A stretch of 25,432 nucleotides of DNA from a virus, in the IMG/VR virus record IMGVR_UViG_3300037493_003860, positions 1 to 25,432 of that record, one strand, 5' to 3'. This document shows, piece after piece, positions 742-1,858 of this stretch; position 1 is the stretch's first letter; each line of letters opens with the position of its first letter. The position numbers were made by a program, and so were the translations under genes. The notes under the pieces are model-generated. The model worked only from the letters and a program-made list of their open reading frames with translations, ran no database searches and was not told where the DNA came from.

Positions 742-782
742 CCCCGCGCAGGCTGGAGCGGATGCGGGTGGAGGATGCGTGA
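738..782 (+). other. 14-codon mini-cistron bridging to the methyltransferase
   Basis: A reading frame MTPRRLERMRVEDA starts with ATG inside the previous stop (ATGA at 738-741) and stops with a TGA that shares its last base with the methyltransferase ATG (780-784). It would carry ribosomes across what is otherwise a 40-base gap and continues the coupling seen at every other junction. It may be a translational coupling or leader peptide, or simply the spacer holding the methyltransferase ribosome-binding site (GGAGG at 770-774). No function is claimed for the peptide. Confidence 0.35.
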
Positions 783-1858
783 TGCGCAAGCTTCGCGTCC
801 TCGATCTTTTCAGCGGCGTCGGCGCGTACTCGCTTGGCCTTGAACGCACAGGCGGCTTTCAGACCGTGGCGTTCTGCGAGCTTGAAGACTACCCGCGCCG
901 CATACTGAGGAAGCACTGGCCCGATGTCAAAATCTACGAAGACGTCCGTGAACTCACCGGCGCCCGACTTGCCGCAGATGGAATTGTTCCCGACTGGATC
1001 GTTGCCGGCTGGCCCTGCCAAGACATCAGCAGTGCGGGTACGGGACATGGCCTGGACGGCGCACGCTCAGGACTATGGACGGAAATCGTGCGACTGGCTC
1101 GCGAGTTGGGAGTTAAAGGGCTCATTCTGGAGAACAGCTCAAACCTCCTTAGCATCAACGGGGGAGCTGACTTCGGAACGGTTCTCGGAGACTTGGCCGC
1201 GCTCGGGTTTGATGCGGAATGGCACTGCTTACCTGCTGCCGCCTTTGACGCACCGCACATCCGTGATCGCCTCTGGGTCGTCGCAACTTCTGCCGACGCC
1301 AACCTGCGCTGCAAACATGATGTCTCCATCAATGCAGAAATGGCCGCTTCACCGCAATCTGTGGCCGACGCCTCACGGGTTCAGCGCGGATGGGAAGAGC
1401 AACGGGCCAAGCGGGAACGAGTTGGGCCGGGCGGTGAACCAGAGACTGTTTCCAACGCCAAGGTCGTCGGACGGAGAAAAAGGAAGCAGGACGGCACAGG
1501 GAGCGGCTCGAGAACTCGAGCGCGGGAAGAATATCGACCTGGGAATGGTGGCTGCACTTTGGCCGACACCGACAGCGTCGGCGGGCGGACAAGACACTGC
1601 GGCGCTAGCGAGGGGCAAGACGCTGAATTTGGCGGGAGCGGTGCAAATCTGGCCGACGCCAACATCGTCGCGCCGATCGGGACTGCAATCGCACGGATCG
1701 AACGCCATACTTGGGAGCCTGAACCCGGACTGGGTCGAGTGGCTACAGGGATTGCCGATAGGGTGGACCGCCTCCGCGCAATCGGAAACCTCAACCCGCC
1801 CATCATCCCGGAAACGATAGGCCGCGCAATTCTCGCAGCACAGGAAGCAGCAGCATGA
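782..1858 (+). CDS. C5 cytosine DNA methyltransferase (Dcm-like)
   Basis: This 358-aa enzyme should transfer a methyl group from S-adenosylmethionine to carbon 5 of cytosine in DNA. The start is ATG 782, preceded by GGAGG at 770-774; the frame is open further upstream, but motif I begins just after this Met. Visible motifs: I, VLDLFSGVGAYSLGLE (residues 7-21); IV, GWPCQDIS with catalytic Cys79; VI, LENSSNLL with Glu117 (usually ENV); VIII, HIRDRLWVVA (159-168; the family usually has QxRxR); and X, LRAIGNLNPPIIPETIGRAI (331-350). Residues 170-310, where the target-recognition domain should lie, are low in complexity and contain five spaced [A/S][D/N][A/T] repeats. Phage C5 enzymes with such a region are known. 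It could protect phage DNA from restriction or alter host methylation. A second long frame overlaps most of the gene. Confidence 0.93.
   Translation: MRKLRVLDLFSGVGAYSLGLERTGGFQTVAFCELEDYPRRILRKHWPDVKIYEDVRELTGARLAADGIVPDWIVAGWPCQDISSAGTGHGLDGARSGLWTEIVRLARELGVKGLILENSSNLLSINGGADFGTVLGDLAALGFDAEWHCLPAAAFDAPHIRDRLWVVATSADANLRCKHDVSINAEMAASPQSVADASRVQRGWEEQRAKRERVGPGGEPETVSNAKVVGRRKRKQDGTGSGSRTRAREEYRPGNGGCTLADTDSVGGRTRHCGASEGQDAEFGGSGANLADANIVAPIGTAIARIERHTWEPEPGLGRVATGIADRVDRLRAIGNLNPPIIPETIGRAILAAQEAAA
924..1820 (+). CDS. Overlapping +1-frame protein nested in the methyltransferase gene
   Basis: A 298-aa frame lies wholly inside the methyltransferase gene, +1 relative to it. GAGGAAG at 906-912 is a possible, somewhat distant ribosome-binding site. 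It looks like protein rather than noise: a segment FSETWPRSGLMRNGTAYLLP (residues 87-106), five regularly spaced [LFI][LFW]PTP motifs at residues 122-126, 146-150, 175-179, 212-216 and 242-246, and a C-terminal SLNPDWVEWLQGLPIGWT (265-282). I recall phage proteins with this pattern (WPTP repeats, then LNPxWVEWLMGxPIGWT), often annotated as hypothetical or methylase-related, so both frames may be conserved. The last motif resembles motif IX of C5 methyltransferases. The function is unknown; a partner or target-recognition role for the methyltransferase is a guess. Confidence 0.55.
   Translation: MSKSTKTSVNSPAPDLPQMELFPTGSLPAGPAKTSAVRVRDMAWTAHAQDYGRKSCDWLASWELKGSFWRTAQTSLASTGELTSERFSETWPRSGLMRNGTAYLLPPLTHRTSVIASGSSQLLPTPTCAANMMSPSMQKWPLHRNLWPTPHGFSADGKSNGPSGNELGRAVNQRLFPTPRSSDGEKGSRTAQGAARELERGKNIDLGMVAALWPTPTASAGGQDTAALARGKTLNLAGAVQIWPTPTSSRRSGLQSHGSNAILGSLNPDWVEWLQGLPIGWTASAQSETSTRPSSRKR

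Follow-up and report, generated by a model that had tools for sequence, protein, structure and literature searches.

A virus locus predicted to encode a split C5-cytosine DNA methyltransferase with its second subunit nested in the +1 frame of the first

Both reading frames considered here lie in a stretch of virus DNA of 25,432 bases (the window). The larger frame, termed alpha, most likely starts at the ATG at position 782, and the smaller frame, termed beta, lies entirely within it. The preliminary description had placed a 298-codon frame at 924-1820 inside the methyltransferase gene, in its +1 phase, and we found this frame open and its coordinates correct. The protein-like features listed for it, namely FSETWPRSGLMRNG, five PTP motifs and a C-terminal LNPDWVEWLQGLPIGWT, were likewise all present, with the PTP motifs starting at 1287, 1359, 1446, 1557 and 1647. 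The features of the locus are as follows.

782-1858, plus strand: alpha, the large polypeptide of a C5-cytosine methyltransferase, 358 aa, without motif IX
800-826, plus strand: alpha motif I, LDLFSGVGA
907-926, plus strand: possible translation start of beta (GAGGA at 907-911, a 12-base gap, ATG at 924), weak
924-1820, plus strand: beta, nested gene in the +1 phase of alpha, 298 aa, predicted second methyltransferase subunit
1007-1030, plus strand: alpha catalytic motif IV, GWPCQDIS
1074-1223, plus strand: conserved N-terminal part of beta, from YGRKSCDWLASW (1074-1109) to FSETWPRSGLMRNG (1182-1223), overlapping alpha upstream of motif VIII
1130-1150, plus strand: alpha motif VI, ENSSNLL
1247-1285, plus strand: alpha motif VIII, DAPHIRDRLWVVA
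1287-1661, plus strand: variable region of beta with five (L/F/I)(L/F/W)PTP repeats and beta-type codon phase, putative target-recognition region
1652-1741, plus strand: stretch of strongest constraint on both frames, from synonymous change in six relatives
1719-1769, plus strand: beta motif IX, LNPDWVEWLQGLPIGWT
1763-1789, plus strand: alpha motif X, VDRLRAIGN

Upstream of the methyltransferase, positions 1-211 hold a GC-rich tandem repeat with a 36-base unit in 5.7 copies, which is open in several frames. Genes for an endolysin, head closure, a major head protein and DNA-ejection-like functions lie at 3729-23873 on the minus strand, opposite to the methyltransferase, together with several large ORFs without a PHROG match.

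Alpha matched the Pfam family DNA_methylase with an E value of 1.7e-35, the match being confined to positions 2-189 of the 324 in the profile, and phrog_363 with an E value of 2.9e-64. Residues P78 C79 and E117 N118 were invariant in the alpha alignment. AlphaFold2 gave a confident large domain like that of M.HhaI with motif X folded (pLDDT mostly above 90 at residues 1-170 and 340-357, and below 50 for almost all of residues 175-319), and Foldseek matched the model to M.HhaI with an E value of 8.6e-16. Alpha thus has motifs I, IV (PCQ), VI (EN), VIII and X and the M.HhaI large-domain fold of a C5-cytosine DNA methyltransferase. As a single-chain enzyme of this class it is incomplete, because the Pfam match stops at position 189, residues 175-319 are unstructured, and motif IX is found in beta and not in the chain that holds motifs I-VIII.

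Beta matched phrog_1008, labelled 'DNA methyltransferase', with an E value of 3e-32. Its variable region at 1287-1661 is read by alpha as a linker predicted to be disordered. Modelled alone with AlphaFold2, beta gave a poor structure (mean pLDDT 55.6), and searching PDB sequences with the profile of beta returned no match; both results fit, without proving it, a chain that may fold only with its partner.

With the alpha protein and its codon usage held fixed, the +1 frame was free of stops across the 297 overlapping codons in 0.2% of synonymous shuffles. By itself this test was considered biased, since open frames had defined the overlap, and the stop count was repeated between fixed alpha landmarks; between motifs VI and X of 43 loci, 14 stops were seen in the +1 frame against 123 expected. 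Scored against a beta profile built without this sequence and the closest relatives then collected, the +1 frame reached 188.7 bits, compared with a mean of 49 bits (SD 11, maximum 82) in 1000 alpha-synonymous shuffles. The roughly 49 bits of the shuffles account for the share of the resemblance that alpha creates, so that the remainder represents independent conservation of beta. In the reverse test, with the beta codons shuffled, the alpha motif X region scored 60.8 bits versus 15.5 +/- 7.5. The two shuffle tests therefore indicate that each frame is conserved beyond what its partner imposes. A chance open reading frame was ruled out by the stop-free shuffles, the stop deficit and the beta-profile shuffles. 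The beta of one relative, L016, at first seemed broken; its stop sits upstream of the conserved part.

Alpha-synonymous change was measured against six close relatives. At codons with an unchanged alpha residue it stood at 0.48 ahead of beta, fell to 0.26 in the catalytic overlap and to 0-0.02 at 1652-1741 (2 of 122 identical codons), and was about 0.55 around and past the beta stop. Fisher tests for this suppression gave p values of 6e-8 and 3e-21, to be read with the fact that all pairs share one sequence and hence are not independent. By codon position, substitution in the catalytic part was alpha-like (0.092, 0.046, 0.194), and in the variable region it was beta-like (0.226, 0.105, 0.127; position 1 in alpha corresponds to position 3 in beta). 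Around motif IX substitution was low in both phases, and the flip in phase was blurred in more diverged comparisons with this sequence. The analysis shows beta to be a coding frame that is conserved and under selection. Dual coding, suspected earlier because both frames looked constrained, thus gained strong support from the shuffles, synonymous suppression, codon phase and conservation of the +1 frame. Two outcomes had been named in advance as speaking against it, a +1 frame broken in homologous genes and a lack of purifying selection on it; both analyses were run and gave neither.

Relatives of the locus were collected through beta in IMG/VR and bacterial genomes, with a profile in 369 gammaproteobacterial genomes, and through alpha alone to avoid bias. 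Among named relatives, those nearest to beta are methyltransferase genes of phages annotated for alpha only, such as that of Synechococcus phage Ssp-JY42. The recognition part of beta lay in the +1 frame alone in 303 of 308 loci, which are not all independent, and the scans with alpha alone found beta in +1 alone in 127 of 129 loci, the remaining two being L283, of the third layout described below, and L227, whose alpha is truncated. The +1 relation held in 85 of 85 phage and IMG/VR loci, in every bacterial-genome locus where both parts were found and in all typed gammaproteobacterial loci. Beta occurred without alpha at three loci only, each ending at a contig or locus edge.

Some loci of the survey had individual peculiarities. 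L227 is the only relative of alpha without beta; its alpha stops soon past motif IV and is followed by unrelated sequence. For L207, L208 and L280, the match to the motif X profile lies in the +2 frame, not in 0 or +1, which may be a real layout or a sequencing error. The alpha and beta parts of L108 (2223-3645) fall in three different frames, and the initial parts of the two share one of these, possibly through an assembly error. The beta frame of L079 (2291-3943) has no stop and continues into an amino-methyltransferase-like sequence (DPFCGSGTTG). In the gammaproteobacterial L186, the alpha ORF (105-2132) seems to carry an intein-like insertion that ends just before the catalytic Cys (..ADGIIVHN|CQPFSTAGKN).

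A meaning can be given to the C-terminal peptide of the LNPxWVEWLMGxPIGWT type: by sequence comparison LNPDWVEWLQGLPIGWT of beta is the C5-methyltransferase motif IX, which is absent from alpha. In four loci (L095, L112, L129 and L149) the motif IX peptide is part of alpha's own chain and directly precedes motif X, and a profile comparison tied the family of this sequence to the peptide of these four. phmmer aligned stretches of this type with LHPRECARVMGYPDSY...GNSVV of M.HhaI, in a second domain of about 7 bits that is weak alone and collinear. LNP-WVEW was invariant in the beta alignment, though the loci had partly been gathered by that peptide. Because the beta collections from IMG/VR and bacterial genomes relied on the exact peptide NPDWVEW as one of their patterns, its invariance in those two sets is partly built in; the nearest-relative search, the 369-genome profile scan and the alpha-only scans are free of this bias.

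Three layouts were distinguished by the position of motifs IX and X. In type 1, comprising this locus and 243 loci in all, the recognition region and motif IX are in +1 and motif X is in frame 0. In type 2 (about 26 loci, including mycobacteriophage Inventum L001, Arthrobacter phage ArV1 L004, and L010), motifs IX and X are both in +1 and alpha stops after motif VIII; phrog_116 is a single profile that spans alpha and the beta of such loci, which bears IX and X. In type 3 (5 loci), the recognition region alone is in +1, and motifs IX and X belong to alpha. The type 3 loci form one tree clade, mostly from alphaproteobacterial genomes including Rickettsiales, plus one IMG/VR contig. We considered them as single-chain enzymes and rejected this, as their +1 frame remains open and resembles beta across the recognition region. 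About 12 layout changes were needed on the alpha tree, which was built quickly and has many weakly supported branches, and at least 5-6 changes between types 1 and 2 were forced by well-supported branches. The recognition region remained in +1 across the tree. We consider the chances about even that one widespread family holds its recognition region permanently in the +1 frame, with motifs IX and X moved between the frames many times.

Alpha combines the catalytic domain with motif X but lacks motif IX, which beta carries; beta therefore has what alpha misses. The preliminary description had left the function of the nested protein as not established, and this can now be improved: beta is most likely the second methyltransferase subunit, because it carries motif IX and, by codon phase, the recognition region, both missing from alpha. 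We estimate a probability of about 0.86 that the locus encodes a naturally split, two-polypeptide C5-cytosine methyltransferase of the M.EcoHK31I type with beta nested in alpha. In such an enzyme, alpha (frame 0) would contribute motifs I-VIII in the cofactor-binding and catalytic domain, together with the closing helix of motif X. Beginning within alpha in the +1 frame, and probably initiated independently, beta would provide motif IX and, at its presumed location, the target-recognition region, which together make up the small DNA-binding domain. The two chains would assemble into one active enzyme, presumably a heterodimer, which may methylate the phage's own DNA, perhaps against host restriction. 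The rule that beta supplies motif IX does not extend to the five type 3 loci.

Independent starts agree better with the data on beta than frameshifting does, because conserved beta sequence already lies ahead of motif VIII and because Shine-Dalgarno-like sequences precede internal ATGs. Many relatives have GAGG, AAGG or GGAGG 8-10 bases ahead of a conserved internal ATG. At this locus the start is less clear: the position of the ATG at 924 is kept in all six comparison relatives, including L195, where the alpha residue changes from Asp to His, and the GAGGA near 907-911 is not conserved in them. In one clade we also considered whether the conserved alpha peptide PWRG preserves the Shine-Dalgarno sequence; the Arg and Gly codons showed a weak bias, and we did not keep this explanation.

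Among other explanations, programmed ribosomal frameshifting would fuse the N-terminal part of alpha to the C-terminal part of beta, giving one chain with motifs I-VIII, the recognition region and motif IX, and in type 2 also motif X. The type 2 loci, whose alpha ends after motif VIII while beta continues through IX and X, would suit such a fusion, as would the single chain modelled by phrog_116. However, a fusion past motif VIII has no need of the conserved beta sequence upstream of it (YGxKSxxWLA, FSETWP), the type 1 alpha is open and conserved through to motif X, and the Shine-Dalgarno-like sequences stand ahead of conserved internal ATGs at many loci. No conserved slippery site was noticed, although this was not a systematic search, and we regard frameshifting as unlikely.

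Somewhat less probable still is that beta is a separate protein with a role of its own, for example in anti-restriction or as a regulator, which merely shares DNA with alpha. The deposition of the K1ind2 beta under its own name, 'Mte8-like protein', agrees with this, but a separate role would not account for a beta that bears a methyltransferase motif IX, and at some loci also X, missing from the overlapping alpha, nor for the finding of beta without alpha only where three loci are cut at a contig or locus end. That the beta frame is non-coding and a shadow cast by the codon usage and repeats of alpha is hardly credible: the approximately 49 bits that persist in the shuffles point that way, yet the 188.7 bits of the native frame far exceed the shuffle maximum of 82, and the suppression of alpha-synonymous change, the beta-type codon phase and the stop deficit all oppose it.

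The beta of M.EcoHK31I is nested inside its alpha in another frame. According to PMC3404938, this E. coli enzyme (YGGCCR) has motifs I-VIII and X in the larger subunit and IX in the smaller, with its recognition region predicted in the larger subunit, and the two-polypeptide precedent dates from 1995 (Lee et al., cited in PMC3404938). The split enzyme predicted here shares the division of motifs in this published description, and its smaller chain is likewise nested in a different frame; it differs in that codon phase places the recognition region in beta and in that it is a phage gene, with no partner endonuclease noticed next to it, short of a dedicated search. A search for the M.EcoHK31I sequence in plasmids and gammaproteobacterial genomes gave no identifiable match. 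In the two-polypeptide M.AquI (CYCGRG), as the same source describes it, the smaller subunit comprises the distal variable region and motifs IX-X. This pattern, with a larger subunit ending after motif VIII, was matched by type 2 loci (L001, L004, L010), whereas the alpha of this locus retains motif X and contains the nested beta.

Among phages, Escherichia phage K1ind2 has beta in +1 within its methylase gene, and its record lists a 'C-specific methylase' and the 'Mte8-like protein'; the labels of phrog_1008 and K1ind2 differ from our reading in giving no enzyme role to beta. Gene 58 of coliphage N15, a DNA cytosine methyltransferase distant in sequence from this locus, contains in +1 a beta of 214 aa that is not annotated (E value 3e-25 to the beta profile) and has a clean ribosome-binding site, GGGAGG 8 bases ahead of its ATG. 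Kagunavirus phages carry the same nested arrangement. In the open literature, to which the search was confined (subscription papers lay outside it), we found no paper describing this phage family as two-subunit enzymes with nested genes, and none of the sources found points out motif IX in the nested frame.

The two-polypeptide kind is already known from one characterised bacterial enzyme, and some phage records list both frames. What looks new and seems undescribed is how broad the family is, that the recognition region stays in +1, and that motifs IX and X have moved repeatedly from one frame to the other. In hundreds of 'DNA methyltransferase' genes of phages and prophages there appears to be a hidden +1 gene, which mostly lacks annotation and is probably required for activity. 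A nested beta would explain why these methyltransferases apparently lack motif IX and a recognition domain, and would warn against cloning or recoding the annotated frame only. The family would also form a large natural collection of long genes that code in two frames, each with a function that can be named. If the movement of motifs between frames is true, the split of one enzyme across two overlapping frames would itself be an evolving trait, and recognition regions could alter specificity in trans with the catalytic chain unchanged.
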